From contig JBBPFI010000002.1 of assembly GCA_037974965.1 (NCBI GenBank), positions 2,604,001 to 2,668,000 of the forward strand: a stretch of 64,000 nt of DNA, read 5' to 3'. A program made the position numbers and the translations under genes. The notes beneath the pieces are model-generated. The model was not told the origin of the DNA. It saw nothing but the letters and a program-made list of their open reading frames with translations, and made no database searches. Positions 40,147 through 55,716 of the stretch are shown one piece after another (positions within the stretch are counted from its first letter, which is position 1; each line of letters opens with the position of its first letter). The stretch comes from Dacryopinax spathularia (Eukaryota > Basidiomycota > Dacrymycetes > Dacrymycetales > Dacrymycetaceae).

Positions 40147-43100
40147 TCATTGGCTCCAAAGGGAAAGTAAAATTGCTTTGATCTGCTGGAGCCAGGATGG
40201 GGAAACTACAGCCGCAAAGCTGTCAGTGCGGACTATGGGGAAGCTTATGATCTGGCCGATTTCTGCTCCTACTGGGCGTGTCGGCGCGAAATAGAAGCCC
40301 GCCATCAATACGAGGTAGCTGTCGCAGCGATCAGCATATATTTGGACGGGTAACACCAACCAACGCACCTTAAGATCAACGTGCTACCACGGTGGTAGTT
40401 GCTCTTAGCCTCGATGTAGACATAGGTGAGAAGGAAAATAGAGAGGATGATGGCAATGACGTCCCAGCGAGGGAAAATCAACGTAAATGTATCAGCGATG
40501 TCGCCGACTCTACGTGGATTGTACCAAGCTGAGAAGGCGACCATGGCCGGGATCTGTAGCAGACAGACTTGAAGGGCGTAGGCCGAGCCGATTTCCATGC
40601 TAGGCAGACGAGGGTCAATCTCCGTTGCAACAGACAATCCAGGAAGCGTACCTCAAAGCGATATTGCCATTCATAGCGAATGACATTGCATTCATGAACT
40701 CGGTTGTGTTGGGAACAAGGGCGAAGAGAGTCAGCCCCAAGAACTTTTCGTCTATACCCGAACCCTCCAGGATGACATCCACCACGTCGACCAGAACTTC
40801 GGCAATCGCTGCGTATAATGCGGTACATGCCAGCAGTACGGCAGCGCTAACACCTCTGCTCCACGACGGAGCGTCGTGGCCGCCTTCTGCAGGACCTTCG
40901 TGCTGGCCCATAGCCGTCCTCGGGCGAGCAGGAGACGCAGCTTGCTGATGGCGCAAAGCTGAGACAGTGGCAACAGCCACCGCGCGCGTAAAGTCGTCGG
41001 TCGTCAGATTGGGCGGAAGTGGTAGGGGTTGATGATTTTGATAGTTCGTGGTTGATTTTACAGCTTGATTCACTGTTTCGATGAGGGGCCCGTAGCCGGC
41101 ACCAGGCATCCCGTTTGCTACCGAATTGACGCGGCGATTGGCAACAGGTGAAGCATTTGGAGGGCCAGCTCGGGGGGTGTTCACCGTGCTCGGGCCCTGG
41201 GTAGTGGACCTGTCCGGCTGTCCAACATACGCGCTGCCAATCGTAGTAGCCACACTAGGCCGGCGGGAGATGGGTCTGTGCATGGGAAGAGGCGATTTGG
41301 ATAGCTGCTGATTGACCATTTTGTTGTACACGGAGAGCATACGGCCTGTGGGCGGTGGAGGAGGCTGCGTTGCGCCCTCTAACGGGTGCATAAGCTGTTG
41401 TGGATTCTGCCAGATTTGGGTGGCATGCGTTCGAAGAGAGAACCATAGGCCGATCAGATACGACAGCAGAAGGACTGTGGCGCAGAAGTACATCAGACTC
41501 TTTACGGTCTCTTGATAGAAAGGATCGGTGGTCGGGTCAGGATGTTCGTAAAAACATTGCCGGCACATCCACGGCTGATCAGGCTCACTCCCAGGGAGAC
41601 TTGCAGGGCATCCGACACAGGACAGACGAAACTAAAGCATGCACATAAGACTTAAGCTGATAGTACATGAAAAGACAGCTTACGTTTCCGTATGTCTGGT
41701 AGAACATGGTCGGTGTCAGCGTGCCGATGATAGCCATGATAAGCATAGTGCTGGTGACGCCGGCACTTTTGGCGTTAAACTTCTGCTCCTTTCTTCTGAG
41801 CGCGCCAGAGCACATACTTGCTCCCGGCATCAACAAGACGCCAGCCAGCAAACTGCCTACGATAGAGCCTTCGACCAACAAACCCTTGCCTTGGTTGAGG
41901 GCCATGCCGTACAGAATTATCTCGATGATGGAGCCGAACGTGGCGTTGATGACAGCGCCCATGCCAATGCTGGACTGGGCTGAGATACTGGCGACGGCCA
42001 TGCCGATGAAATATGACAGCGGGATTACGCTGAGGAGCGCAAGAATGAAGATGAGCGGCCGGGAGGCGATGACGTTGAGAAAGGGGGTCGGATTCCGCTC
42101 CCGCATGGGCAGCAATACGAACGCATCGAAGAGAACGAAGAAGACCACAGGCATCAGGTTGACGAACATGATGTTCACGCCACCTATTGTGTATTTGTAG
42201 TATTGCAGGCCGGCAGCGCGATACGTGCAGAGGAGAACGGTCGAGCGCGGGGCACCAGAAGGTGCAGCTTGACCCGCTCGAAGCCTTGTGCGTTTGACGG
42301 TAGTGTGGCTCTCGTTACCCCCGTTCTCAGTTACCACCACGGCAGGCGGCGAGCAGAATCGAATAGAGAGTGGCCTCGTCATCATCAGCTTCACCAGTGC
42401 CCAGTTGAGCTTCGCCATAGGGATGGGCAGAACCATTCCAAAGCAGAGAAGACATATGACCAGCTGGATCGGGGCGATAGCAACCGGATAGAGGGTCCAG
42501 TATACAAGACGGCCCAAGAATTCGCCTGGTTGAGGAGCAGGTGGATATGTTACGGGAGGCGCCCGATCTGGGATGGTATCGTACACTCTCCGTGCCTTCG
42601 ACTTCGTCCCAGGCCGCACGGTAGACTCTGAATCTCTCGTATCGGCGTGTGGCAGGAGTGCCGAGCGTTCTGTTACTGGCGCAGGCCAGTTCGATGTCAT
42701 TGCAGACGGCATGGAAGAAGAACGCGGGTCGGCGAAGAAATCGGTATCTCCATTTTCGGCACCGTCTGGAGCACGGCTACTTTGCGGTTGACCGTCGATC
42801 TCCTCCTCACTTTCGTCGAGATGAGGACTGGGATGGGCTTTGATGGTTCCGGCGGACTCGGACCCACTCCTTGTTCTGGCCGCATACACGGCATTCTCCT
42901 CATCTCTGACCCTACTCCACTCGCGCTCGACCTCGACATCCTCGGGCAGATCGCCTTCAACGTATTTCCCGAAAGGCCAGATGATATACCAGCCCAAACC
43001 CCATATAATCCACGCGTACCGTCTGCCACCGTAGGGTACAACTGCGAGGACGACTGCGACAGCAGTACATACAAGGCCGAGCCACCAGCCGAAAGCGACG

Positions 43101-43783
43101 GCCCAGAAGATATTGCCCGGTGTAATGTGCCGTTCGCGACTAGGGACATTGTGGATAGCCGTCTCTGCATTTCGCGTGACAGTGCGGCTCTTCTTGTAGA
43201 GCGCTGGCTTCCATATAGGAAGGCCAAAGGGGTGTTCAACGTTTATCAAGCTTTGGCGTTCCTTCAAAGTGACAGGATCATCTTCCGTATGACTGGCAAT
43301 GTGCTCTTCAAGAGCTTCGGCTTCATCTGGTGTATTATCATCACCGCCGTCGTCGCCGACTTCGATATCTCGCTCTTCCTGCTCGTTATCCTGCACGTAT
43401 TCGTCGATCATGTCAGTTCCATCTCTGCTGATCCTGGATCCGGTAGTAGCCACACTTGCGCTCCTGTTCAGACGGCGGCGCCGAGCGTTGGGTGCGGAAC
43501 TGGACAGACTGCGTGTGCCCCGGCCGGCACCGCTCGTACTTCGGCCCGAAGGACGACCAGGAGAAGAGGAGCGAGGTTGATAGTGTCTGGGCGAGAAAGG
43601 GGGAAAGTAAGAAGTGCTAGCCGATGTCGGTTGCGTCTCCGACCAACTCTGCGCTGCCTGAGGATGACCGTGGCCATGCCTGTATGCGCCCGGAGTTGGC
43701 GTCTCGCTGGGTGGGATGAAGATCGGCGCTGGTTGTTGATGAGTCTCCGGCGTCGCAGGTGTCTGGCGGTTGTCGTCCTCCAT
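40147..43783 (-). CDS. VNX1: Vacuolar cation/proton antiporter, VNX1/CAX family
   Basis: This family exchanges Na+, K+ or Ca2+ for H+ across the vacuolar or an inner membrane. A long disordered cytosolic N-terminus (MEDDNRQTPATPETHQQPAP and onward) precedes the membrane part. Segments include ITPGNIFWAVAFGWWLGLVC, IAPIQLVICLLCFGMVLPIP, GGVNIMFVNLMPVVFFVLFD and PLIFILALLSVIPLSYFIGM. The Na_Ca exchanger alpha-repeat appears as GMGAVINATFGSIIEIILYG, and the second one around FALVPNTTEFMNAMSFAMNG. Later there are SMEIGSAYALQVCLLQIPAM and VIAIILSIFLLTYVYIEAKS, ending at 40147 after YLVLMAGFYFAPTRP. Length over 1,100 residues and the VNX1-type N-terminal hydrophobic extension separate it from the short Vcx1. 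A Pro/Ala-rich loop splits the two halves. Confidence 0.9.
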
Positions 43784-44705
43784 CGCTCTCTACGGTCGTC
43801 GGTGGTCGATGGTCGATGAAGCAAGTGACCGTATTGAGAAGAGAGAGAGGGTGGGGAGGGAGAGGGGGAAGGGTATAGGAGAGGGTGATGCAGTCAACGC
43901 GCGCATGTGCGTGATGTGCCGCGAAGCCAAGGCACGGCGCCGGGTGCGGGTGCAATCAATGCCGACCGGCCGCAATCATTGGAACCGGCCCTCAACCATC
44001 CAAACGCTTGATCAGCGATGTCATGGTCCGTGCGCCTACAACCCAGTCGAGACACTTTTGTTCTTGTATGCGAAAATCGTGTGTCCTCATCCCCGCCCAT
44101 ATTATGTCTGTTCTTGGGCATAGGTAAAGGTGCGCAGGGCTTACCCCTGAATCCCAATCGCAGCGAAGGTTCTGGTCAGTTGGCCAGCTGAGCTCCGACA
44201 TTACGATGATACAAGGTCTTGACGCGTCAGCGAGACGAATTTCAGCTTGTCCACAAGCGACACCGGGAAAGTGTTGCTTTCAGGTATTCCGGCCCTGAAC
44301 GTGCACATTACATACAGAACGCGGGGTGCAGATATACACGACTGTGGCGCACGAAGTTCCCACTCATCAAACAGCCGTGGAGGGATACATTCCGCTTCTT
44401 CGTTCTTTTGTATGGTGACCGACCACAGTCTAAATGGTGTTTCCCAATTGGAGGGCTGCGTGGTACTGTAGGCTGCTTCGCATACGTGGGCGTACGAGGT
44501 GTCATGGGCAAATGAACGGAGGTCGCAGCGAAAAGTCTTCGAGCGCGCAAGCCAACATTAACCACATTTAATTCAAAGATTACCAAAAAGACAGGCGCCA
44601 GATGCAGGACCCGCGATTCCCGTCCCGCGCGATTCCCGCGTTACGTGCCATCTATTGACAATCATCTGTCCTCAGTGAAAGGAAGTGGGAGAATAGAGCG
44701 TGCGT
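43784..44705. other. Intergenic region between antiporter start and metallothionein end
   Basis: 922 bp, presumably the antiporter promoter and leader. Purine-rich repeats (GAGAGAGAG-like) occur at 43840-43885. Only short open frames of no known type were seen. Confidence 0.5.
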
Positions 44706-44918
44706 TCAGCACTTGCACTCGCCGGGCTGACAGCATATGGTCAGCTCTCGATTGCTTAAGAAGCAAAGTGGATGAACGTACAGCGCAGCCGCAGGAGTCG
44801 CCGCAGTTGCACTGGGACTCGCCGCAGTGGGCATCGACAACGACGGTAATGATAGCCTGAGCAAGACATGGCATTAGCTACATTCCATGAATGAGGGGAA
44901 AGGTAAACTCACAGCCAT
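44706..44918 (-). CDS. Metallothionein-like protein, 33 residues, seven cysteines
   Basis: Metallothioneins bind Cu(I), Zn or Cd through cysteine clusters. Three exons: 44918-44913 (MA), 44856-44782 (25 codons) and 44726-44706 (PGECKC and stop). Introns are 56 and 55 nt with GT-AG ends. The product begins MAAIITVVVDAHCG and ends CNCGDSCGCAPGECKC. Cysteines at 13, 18, 20, 24, 26, 31 and 33 give C-x4-C-x-C-x3-C-x-C-x4-C-x-C, all CxC types, with no aromatic residue and one His. Seven cysteines is also the number in the Neurospora and Agaricus copper metallothioneins, though the spacing here differs. A TATA box lies about 90 bp upstream of the ATG. The split, tiny frame means automatic callers can miss it. 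No other copy was found in the window. Confidence 0.85.
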
Positions 44919-45004: not shown

Positions 45005-45012
45005 TTTTTATA
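45005..45012 (-). promoter_or_regulatory. TATA box of the metallothionein gene
   Basis: On the minus strand it reads TATAAAAA, 87-94 bp before the start codon. A good TATA box fits a strongly inducible gene. Confidence 0.7.
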
Positions 45013-45795: not shown

Positions 45796-47309
45796 CTAGA
45801 TCGCTCTGGCCAGATACTCCTCCCGTGCTTTGGCAACGCGCTCGGCGGCCACATCGCCCTCCGGAAGCTCGGGCAGCTTGTAACCGTTCTCCTTGATCTC
45901 CTTAGCAGCGGTGGGATACGCTTCCCATGCATGCTTCTCCGCGTCGTGTCCCAGAAGCCATTCCTCCCTATTCAGTGCGACGCTGTTCGGATCCTGGACA
46001 GCTTTCTTATCGTCTGCCTGGTGCCATTTGTCCCTGTTTGTCTCGCCCGTGCGCTGCGCCTGCCGCACGCGTTGATATCGGATCTTCTCGAATGCCCGGA
46101 TAGCCAGTGGAGCTTCCTCCGGACCGGAGATTTTAAGGTTCACAGCAATGGTCACGCCGTCCTCGATTGCCTGGCTGGCGCCCTGGATGCTGGTGGGAAG
46201 GAAAGGATGTGCGGCATCGCCGATAACAGCGATGCGCGCCTTCTTACTTATCCACGTCGGCAGCGGGTCGCGATACACGAGTTTCCAGTCGACACAGCTG
46301 GGTGCTTTTGAGAGGATGGCCGCACAGCGAGGATCCCAGTCCTCGACGATCTTTAGGACGTCCTCCATCTTCCCAGGGAAGGACCACGACTCCTCGATGT
46401 CGGCCGTATCTTTGTGCGTGATGACCCAGCTGACATCCTTGCCACCCTTGGAGGACGAGGACAGCATGTGAACATCCTTTCCGATCCAGCCATAGAACGC
46501 ATCGCCATCCTTGACGAGGTAGTCGGACAGAGGGTCATCGGCGATGCCGCTCTCCTTGGCGCTGAACCAGGCACGATAGATGGCATATCCGGATGGCTTG
46601 GGCTTGTCGAAGTAGCCCTAGAGGTATCGTCAATGGCCGGGTTCACAACAGATCAAACCCATACTCACCAATACCATCTCCCTAGCCTTCGAGCGTACTC
46701 CGTCTGCACCGATCACGACGTCCGCACTCAACCTCTCCCCATTGCAGACGACGCCAGCCGCGTTCTCGTCCTCCCAGTACTCTGTCACATTCGAGCCGAG
46801 CCGCATATCCACGCCGAGCTGATGAGTATTTCAGTACCGTCCTCAGCAACCGGTCGAAAGTACGCGCACCTCGATAGCATGGTCGAACAGGATCTGGTGC
46901 AGCTCGCCTCGATGGCCATTGTAGCTGTAGCTACCGAACTCCTTCTCGTTCAGCGGCTGGGCGGTAATGAGATCGCCCTTCCATGTATGCAGGTGGAACG
47001 TCTTCAGGTGGGTGCACAGCGGCCAGATTTTATCATGCAGTCCCCAGCGTTCGAATATCCTGCCGGCATTGGGACCGAAGGAAATGATGTCGCCCAGCAC
47101 CTTGAGCGCCGGGAACTTCTCAAGGAGGATGACATCGTGTCCCTGCGCAGACACATCAGCCCCGTCCATCTCATCTTTGGGAGGCAACGCACCTTCAAGC
47201 GCGACTCGATCGCGCATGCCAGTCCTGCAAATCCTGCGCCAACAATGATGATCTTCACGGGCCTGTTACTCTTCTCCGCCCCAGCTCCATTCGTGCCGTT
47301 CGTAGCCAT
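45796..47309 (-). CDS. FAD-dependent monooxygenase 1 (salicylate hydroxylase-like)
   Basis: Class A flavin monooxygenases use NADPH and O2 to hydroxylate aromatic rings. From MATNGTNG (47309) the FAD fold starts [19 protein letters not shown], giving GxGxxG without interruption. After an intron, [40 protein letters not shown] and [15 protein letters not shown] follow. The DG motif is [16 protein letters not shown] and the GD motif [15 protein letters not shown], in one exon. The C-terminus reads EENGY-type residues ([15 protein letters not shown]) and ends EEYLARAI at 45796. Copy 1 keeps introns after the FAD fold (ESRLK), after HAIE and at KAREMVL, but lacks those that copies 2 and 3 have at GAGFG and IGDAA. 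The substrate is unknown; salicylate, phenolics and isoflavonoids are typical for relatives. Confidence 0.9.
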
Positions 47310-52110: not shown

Positions 52111-53857
52111 CTACATCGCCCTAGCCAGATACTCCTCCCTAGCCTTCAACACCCTCTCCCGGGCCTTATCATCCTCCCTCAGCTCCGGCAGCTTATACCC
52201 TTCCTTCCTAATCTTCTCCGCCGTCTCCTCATAATGCTCCTTCGCCCACTGCTCAGCATCGTGGTTCATGATCCACTCCTCGTCTTTCCACCGCACGCTG
52301 TCAGGGTCTTTCTTGGCAGCTTCTTCGTCCGCGTTGTGCCATCTGTCGCGGTTCACTTCGCCGGTGACTTGGGCGTCCCGGACGCGGGTGTAGCGCATTG
52401 CTTCGAAGGCTTGTAGTGCGAGCTGAGCGTCCTTGCGACCTGAGAGGGAGAGGTTGACCGCGATGGTCACGCCGTCTTCGATCGCTTGGCTCGCTCCTTG
52501 CGCGCTTGTCGGCAGGAAGGGGTGCTACATCATCAAATCAAGCGATGAACACTCAATGTCCTGAACAAATGTCCAATTTGGCAACAAGCGAGCACTCACC
52601 GCCGCATCCCCAATCAATGCAATCCTCGCCTTCCGGCTCAGCCAAGTCGGCAGCGGATCACGATACACCAACTTCCAATCGACGCAACTCGGTGCCTTAC
52701 TCAAAATCGCCGCGCACCTCGGATCCCACCCCTCAACAATCTTGAGCACATCCTCCATCTTCCCCGGGAACTGCCAAGACTCCTCGATGTCCGCTTCGTC
52801 CTTGTGCGTTATCACCCAGGACACGTCCTTGCCGCCCTTGGAAGAAGAGGTGAGGAAATGCACGTCTTTGCCGATCCAGCCGTAGAACGCGTCCCCGTCT
52901 TTGACGAGGTAGGAAGAGAGCGGGTCTTCGGCAATCCCGCTGCCTTCGGCTTTGAACCAGGCGCGGTAGACGGCATACCCCGACGGGCGGGGCTTGTCGA
53001 AGTATCCCTACGCCGGATTTGAGCCTCGCTCACGGGATTGCTCTTGACAGAGAATGATGACTTACGAGCACCTTCTCGCGCGCTTTGGACCGGACGCCGT
53101 CGGCGCCGATCACGACGTCTGCCGTGAGTCGCTCGCCGTTCGTCACTACACCAGCAGCGTCGTCCGTCTCCCAGTACTCCGTTACCTGCTGGCCAAACCG
53201 AATGTCGATCCCCATCTGCAAGACCTTGTCAGCCGCACGCCTCAACGTCCCGACCGCGCAAAGGAGGCGACGGGAAGGAACAACGTGAAGAGCGGGCACT
53301 CACGGACTGCGCATGCTCCAACAAGATCTTATGCAACTCCCCCCGATGTCCATTATAATGATGAATCCCATCCTTCCTCGGCTGAATCGGCGTATTATCG
53401 ATCAACTGGCCCGACCACGTATGCAAGTGGAACTGCCTCAAGTGGGTGCAGACGGGCCAGAATTGGTCGTGGAGTCCCCAGCGCTGGAAGATTCGTCCTG
53501 CGTTGGCGCCGAAGGAGATGATGTCGCCGAGGACTTTGAGCTCGGGGAATTTCTCCAGGAGGATGACGTCGTGGCCCTGGGCAGAGGAGGCGGCGTCAGC
53601 ACGTAGAATCGGGGCATGGGCGAACAACACTCATTACCTTCAGCTTGGATTCGACTACGCATGCGAGGCCGGCTGCAGAGGAATATGTTCATCAGAGGGA
53701 CGAGAGCTACACTTGCATGATGGGATTGCATACCAAATCCAGCGCCAACAATGATCATCTTGACCGGATCTTCCGACGCATGTCCGTTCGTGCCATTGGT
53801 AGCAGGAGCAGGAGCAGGAGCAGGAGCAGAAGCAGTACCGTTCGTTTTAGCCATCAT
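52111..53857 (-). CDS. FAD-dependent monooxygenase 2 (salicylate hydroxylase-like)
   Basis: The second copy of the array. The N-terminus has an Ala-Pro repeat coded by GGAGCA-type hexamers (TASAPAPAPAPA), then VKMIIVGAGF. An intron inside GAGF-AG joins to GLACVVESKLK; a second intron splits KLK from [25 protein letters not shown]-type sequence is QRWGLHDQFWPVCTHLRQFH. The DG motif ([19 protein letters not shown]) and GD motif (ARIALIGDAA spliced to HPFLPTS) are intact. The tail is NGY-free here (IRKEGYKLPELREDD) and ends EEYLARAM at 52111. It has all introns seen in either of the other copies: GAGF, KLK, HAQS, KAREKVL and IGDAA. It is closer to copy 3 than to copy 1 by eye. The start could also be the second Met at 53854. 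Confidence 0.9.
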
Positions 53858-54200: not shown

Positions 54201-55716
54201 TCACATCGCCCGGGCGAGGTATTCCTCCCGGGCCTTCATCACCCTCTCCTTCGCCTTATCGTCGTCCGGTAGCTCAGGCAGCTTATATCCGTTCTCCTGG
54301 ATATCCTTTGCCGCTTCCGCATAATGCTCGAACGCGTACGTCTCGGCGTTGTGGCCCATGATCCACTCTTCGTTGAACAGTTTGACCGAGTCGGGGTTCT
54401 TCTTCACCTCCTCGTCGTCTGCATTATGCCATTTGTCTCGGTTTGTCTCGCCCGTCACTTGGGTCTTCCGGACACGCTCGTACCGCATCTTCTCGAAGGC
54501 CTGTAGCGCTAGTTGCGCATTCTTCTTGCCTGCGAGCTTGAGGTTGACAGCGATCGTAACGCCATCTTCAATGGCTTGAGAAGCGCCTTGTGCGCTTGTT
54601 GGCAGGAACGGGTGCTGCAATGCCAGGTCAGCGAGATGATGCCAGACTACAGTGAGTAGTGCTCACAGCAGCATCACCAATTAGAGCAATCCTCGCTTTG
54701 CGGCTGAGCCAAGTCGGCAATGGGTCTCGATATACCAGCTTCCAATCCACGCAGCTAGGTGCCTTCGATAGGATGGCAGCGCATCTTGGATCCCAATCCT
54801 CAACAATCTTCAGCACATCCTCCATCTTCCCCGGGAACTGCCATGATTCCTCGATGTCTGCCTCGTCTTTGTGTGTGATGACCCAGCTTACATCCTTGCC
54901 CCCTTTAGAGGACGAGCAGAGGAAGTGGACGTCTTTGCCGATCCAGCCGTAGAATGCGTCGCCATCTTTTACGAGATAGTTCGACATGGGATCTTCATCG
55001 ATACCACTGCCCTTTGCTGTGAACCATGCTCGGTACACAGCATACCCGGATGGGCGAGGCTTGTCGAAGTAGCCCTGAAGTGGTAATTAGCGTATGTCGA
55101 CTAAGGTGTCTTCTAGCGAAACTTACCAAGACCTTCTCACGAGCTTTGGAGCGAACACCATCTGCACCAATAACGACATCCGCAGACAGACGTTCACCAT
55201 TCACGACAACCCCAGCCTCATCATCCGTCTCCCAGTATTCCGTTACCTGCTGACCGAAACGAACATCAATGCCCAGAGTATTGATGGCGTGATCGATCAG
55301 GATGGCGTGCAGCTCCCCTCGGTGACCATTGTACTGATACGCGCCGAACCTCTTCTCCTCCAGCGGTTGGGCGGATATGAGGTCGCCCTTCCATGTATGC
55401 AAGTGGAACATCTTCAGGTGTGTGCAGATGGGCCAGAAGCGCTCGTGCAGACCCCAGCGCTCGAATATGCGGCCTGCGTTGGCACCGAAGGAGATAATGT
55501 CGCCTAGGATCTTCATCTCGGGGAACTTCTCCAGCAGGATGACATCGTGTCCCTTCAGCTTGGACTCGATGGCACATGCAAGACCAGCTAGTCATCATGT
55601 CAGTTGAGAAGCTTGAGTGTATATGCAGGTCTTTGCGCACCAAACCCAGCTCCAACAATGATGAGCTTCACCTTCTCCTCATTTGCATTTCCGTTGGTGC
55701 CATTAGTGGAAGCCAT
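54201..55716 (-). CDS. FAD-dependent monooxygenase 3 (salicylate hydroxylase-like)
   Basis: The third copy. MASTNGTNGNANEEKVKLII (55716) opens the FAD fold; one intron splits GAGF from [17 protein letters not shown], so the second intron of copies 1 and 2 is missing. [19 protein letters not shown] and HRGELHAILIDHAINTLGID run on without the intron the others have at that place. [19 protein letters not shown] and a spliced [21 protein letters not shown] keep the DG and GD motifs. The tail reads [20 protein letters not shown] and ends EEYLARAM at 54201. The FAD and NADPH motifs look intact, so it should be active. A TATA box lies about 70 bp upstream. Confidence 0.9.

Follow-up and report, generated by a model that had tools for sequence, protein, structure and literature searches.

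On its minus strand, the window (the whole 64-kb stretch of DNA that was analysed) carries between 44918 and 44706 what is very probably a real three-exon gene for a metallothionein-like peptide, a reading supported both by its structure and by the spacing of its cysteines. Exon 1 (44913..44918) consists of the six nucleotides ATGGCT (Met-Ala) and is followed by a 56-nt intron 1 (44857..44912; GTGAGT..CAG), a 75-nt exon 2 (44782..44856) encoding AIITVVVDAHCGESQCNCGDSCGCA with five of the seven cysteines, a 55-nt intron 2 (44727..44781; GTACGT..CAG, with CTGAC close to its 3' end) and a 21-nt exon 3 (44706..44726) that supplies PGECKC and the TGA stop. All of these features, on the minus strand, were read from the sequence, the splice borders being predicted from GT-AG sequence and not from RNA. 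Together the exons (6 + 75 + 21 nt) give a 102-nt frame, and the predicted spliced product, MAAIITVVVDAHCGESQCNCGDSCGCAPGECKC, is 33 residues long and contains seven cysteines in the pattern C-x4-C-x-C-x3-C-x-C-x4-C-x-C, which spans residues 13-33. It begins with a 12-residue, Cys-free N-terminal arm, MAAIITVVVDAH, the first cysteine being residue 13. On re-reading, the minus strand gave the same coordinates, the same two introns, the same frame of 102 nt and product of 33 residues, and the same seven-cysteine spacing as the earlier note had proposed. The 12 Cys-free residues of the arm were likewise recovered, but the string quoted for them, IITVVVDAHCG, has 11 letters and already includes the first cysteine.

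DNA and protein searches uncovered at least three further copies in the same genome, i.e. at least four in all. One of them is localized on contig 2, 31 kb from the gene at 44706..44918, and two lie 7 kb apart on contig 1; the paralogs, at least four in number, form two loosely linked pairs. Three of the four copies served as queries in the protein searches (E <= 10), whose counts are lower bounds; each query returned at least four matches (four of the four candidates scored), in the same four places every time. When spliced by hand, all four copies display three exons, a 75-nt exon 2, phase-0 GT-AG introns (50-92 nt) and an identical heptaCys motif, and in all four intron 2 is placed after the same codon of the cysteine motif (CGC plus one residue). 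Exon 1 reads ATGGCT in three copies and is reduced to a bare ATG in the fourth. The predicted products have 33, 33, 36 and 33 residues, and the identity of the 33-, 36- and 33-residue paralogs to the product of 44706..44918 is 82, 67 and 53%, respectively. Alignment of the four sequences reveals 13 invariant columns (M1, V9, A11, H12, C13, G14, C18, C20, C24, G25, C26, C31 and C33), among them all seven cysteine columns, and a V-[DN]-A-H-C-G stretch is kept in every copy. When relatives were sought outside this genome, 44 stretches of viral contigs and 54 of prokaryote genomes fitted a peptide pattern, none of which was confirmed by tblastn at E <= 1e-3.

The identity of exon 2 over the six pairs of copies ranges from 0.67 to 0.80. 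In the closest pair the differences fall mainly on third codon positions (2, 3 and 10 at first, second and third positions), with six synonymous against five nonsynonymous codon changes. The corresponding counts are 3 against 8 and 5 against 9 for the pairs with the third copy, and 1 synonymous against 10, 13 or 14 nonsynonymous for the pairs with the fourth. Since nonsynonymous changes predominate among the changed codons of five of the six pairs, constraint outside the cysteines appears to be loose. The likeness of the introns was scored in 12 comparisons against 100 letter shuffles: three exceeded every shuffle (both introns of copies a and c, and intron 2 of c and d), two equalled the shuffle maximum at two decimals (intron 2 of b and c, and of b and d) and the remaining seven fell below it.

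The free choice of splice sites might itself put together a Cys-rich stretch. With at most two introns of 40-120 nt permitted, a 421-nt stretch offers 617 possible readings, 45 of which contain at least six cysteines, and 12 of these 45 use donors like those of the proposed gene model. Against this, the 64-kb window contains the in-frame core C-x4-C-x-C-x3-C-x-C at a single place, the metallothionein gene, and the same five-Cys core turned up in only one of 200 dinucleotide-preserving shuffles of the window; three paralogs, moreover, share the structure and the cysteine spacing. A chance origin of the pattern is unlikely given the shuffles together with three further genome copies of the same exon number and spacing, the comparison among paralogs being the stronger evidence of the two, and assembly of the peptide by unconstrained splice-site choice is scarcely credible. 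A second alternative concerns the start of the gene and would leave the metallothionein reading unaffected. Translation could begin at the ATG at 44874, within the proposed intron 1, so that a single intron would remain and the product would have 37 residues and eight cysteines, with MPCLAQ preceding AIITVVVDAHCG. The frame is indeed open from this ATG, and the nearest paralog likewise has an in-frame ATG at -18; however, the extra N-terminal residues differ between the two (MPCLAQ versus MLRGTQ), and in the other two paralogs a stop lies in frame at -3, just ahead of exon 2, which means that an upstream exon 1 is needed there. Three of the four copies also retain ATGGCT with a GT donor after it, and the metallothionein gene AcMT2 has three exons (PMC12508003). 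The internal start is therefore highly improbable.

The earlier note had also taken a box upstream of the gene as support for a real, inducible gene. The box is present: a TATA box, TATAAAAA, lies at 45012-45005 (45005..45012, minus strand) and begins 94 nt upstream of the ATG. TATA-like sites begin at -98, -88 and -87 in the paralogs, these patterns having been picked post hoc, with no shuffle control. Such sites in four copies fit real promoters but say nothing on inducibility, for which a TATA box alone is no proof. Nine known motifs, including Ace1-like, MRE (TGCRCNC), Mac1-type and STRE, were sought in the 500 bp that precede each of the four copies and scored against 100 shuffle sets; none of the nine was enriched, the observed sum being reached by at least 40 of the 100 sets for every motif. 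A 9-mer, CCGGCTCGC, is shared by three of the four upstream stretches, while 60 shuffle sets contained on average 0.07 such 9-mers and at most one, and its only exact match in the 64-kb window is at the metallothionein gene. It is no more than a weak lead, because its positions are scattered (-132, -124 and -367), one is on the other strand, and the fourth promoter lacks it.

Two copper-fist (PF00649) matches exceed the cut-off in the genome, L008 (G000:C10:49895) and L009 (G000:C10:42872), separated by about 7 kb on contig 10 and in opposite orientation. Downstream of one of them, in another frame, lies a Cys-rich stretch, CSCGFTCSCPGCAEH, presumably joined to the copper-fist frame by splicing; we take it to resemble the copper-sensing motif of Ace1/Mac1/Cuf1. 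No such stretch was found beside the other match in the same scan, with three frames read.

The product of 44706..44918 and its nearest paralog have no match in Pfam, and the other two copies reach 20.2 and 19.2 bits with Metallothio_6 (PF05522), under the cut-off of 23; none of the four copies matches NCBIfam, and neither the single sequence nor the four-sequence profile matches PDB. With two of four copies lacking a Pfam match and an exon 1 of only 3-6 nt, such genes can escape annotation. The genome profile search also returned 54 matches to DUF6533, all over the cut-off, and 11 to CxC2, seven of them over it. We take both to be families rich in basidiomycetes, and the counts fit a basidiomycete host; neither had a match in 14 control genomes, a set that offers no fungal comparison. 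PDB matches of Prp8, CPR and a laccase came without organism names and gave no placement of the host. Of the DUF6533 matches, 34 are concentrated in a stretch of about 0.5 Mb on contig 5 (G000:C5:1183807-1655290), a large local expansion in which one row gives an open frame of 21533 aa, an implausible length.

Other features of the window and the genome were recorded alongside. Near the metallothionein gene, on the minus strand, lie the frames of three FAD-monooxygenase-like genes, similar to one another by eye, at 45796-46617, 52525-53007 and 54201-55591; only 54995-55591 matches Pfam FAD_binding_3, and three other scanned stretches match nothing. Downstream of the metallothionein gene, at 40615-43789 on the minus strand, are two cation-exchanger frames (Na_Ca_ex in both, YccF in one), with no evidence of a functional tie to the metallothionein. 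The splicing factor Prp8 is normally single-copy. In this genome a single long copy is accompanied by two more matches (the three being L010, G000:C5:936337; L011, G000:C1:2535304; L012, G000:C8:313327); the two additional ones, in open frames of 565 aa and 571 aa, look nearly identical to one another by eye and may be a gene fragment captured on a repeat.

The gene at 44706..44918, which has at least three paralogs in the genome, very likely encodes a short agaricomycete-type heptaCys metallothionein. In the absence of metal, so short a metallothionein is not expected to adopt a meaningful fold. The predicted 33-residue peptide would use the thiolates of its seven cysteines to wrap Cu(I) and/or Cd(II), and such chelation would buffer or detoxify these ions in the cytosol; the AsMT1 proteins of Amanita strobiliformis have been reported to be cytosolic (PMC5924815). 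A short Cys-rich peptide might instead serve another role, for instance as a metal chaperone or redox buffer, and the V-[DN]-A-H-C-G stretch, conserved in all four copies and without an assigned role, leaves some room for this. Size, cysteine spacing and exon number nevertheless fit metallothioneins for which protection of yeast from Cd and Cu has been reported (PMC12508003), so that a role other than detoxification seems improbable. The same stretch, located at the end of the arm and conserved among the four copies, is the one basis for the further idea that the arm itself is functional, its invariant histidine acting as an eighth metal ligand and the beta-branched stretch before that histidine in pairing or localisation, and that the copies constitute a separate subclass with a preference for another metal. 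This idea is doubtful, and a detoxifying metallothionein of the described type is the reading that we retain.

How such a peptide relates to known fungal metallothioneins depends on the class chosen for comparison. The earlier note regarded the cysteine spacing as unusual and held that the seven-Cys metallothioneins known from fungi are shorter and have their first cysteine very close to the start. The latter description fits the Cu-metallothioneins of Neurospora crassa and Agaricus bisporus (family 8), which have 26 residues and the pattern X2-[CXC]-X5-[CXC]-X3-[CXC]-X2-C-X3 (PMC4755600). The present peptide resembles them in being short, with seven cysteines and CxC pairs, but its spacing departs from their pattern and its first cysteine is residue 13, whereas theirs is residue 3 (PMC4755600). 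A seven-Cys unit is also shared with CnMT1, CnMT2 and TmMT of Cryptococcus and Tremella; those proteins, however, have 122-257 residues with repeated units, and the TmMT gene consists of 10 short exons (PMC4755600), in contrast to the single unit found here.

What this description overlooks is a second class, of 32-35 residues, in which the motif is C-terminal and there is room for a Cys-free arm (PMC12508003). According to the Agaricus crocodilinus study, agaricomycete metallothioneins carry a C-terminal heptaCys motif, C-x4-C-x-C-x2,3-C-x-C-x4-C-x-C (PMC12508003). The spacing of all four copies matches this motif, and is thus a published hallmark of agaricomycete metallothioneins rather than an oddity. 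Table 1 of the same study lists nine short members, 32-35 residues long (AcMT2, AsMT2, CcMT1, CcMT2, LbMT1, PiMT1, PaMT1, ShMT1 and ShMT2), and marks every one of them as protective for yeast exposed to Cd and Cu (PMC12508003). The product of 44706..44918, with 33 residues, falls within this range, whereas one paralog, with 36, is one residue above the published 35. A 21-residue motif in a protein of 32-35 residues leaves 11-14 others by arithmetic, so that an arm of 12 Cys-free residues, as found here, is to be expected for the class. AcMT2 itself has 32 residues, seven cysteines, three exons and introns of about 50 bp (PMC12508003); the present gene likewise has three exons, with predicted introns of 56 and 55 nt. 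Duplicate genes, too, are known from several of those species (PMC12508003).

Assignment to the agaricomycete type thus rests on spacing, size and exon number; on these grounds the gene would add to an already described class, and its spacing is not new in itself. One genome study reported that metallothionein sequences of the mycorrhizal type were not found in two wood-decay fungi, and allowed for either absence or divergence (PMC9320278). Such absences would be better probed by searching for the 75-nt exon that carries the heptaCys core. With the copies described here, at least four short metallothionein genes would join the described fungal class, with the same C-terminal seven-cysteine spacing as its published members.
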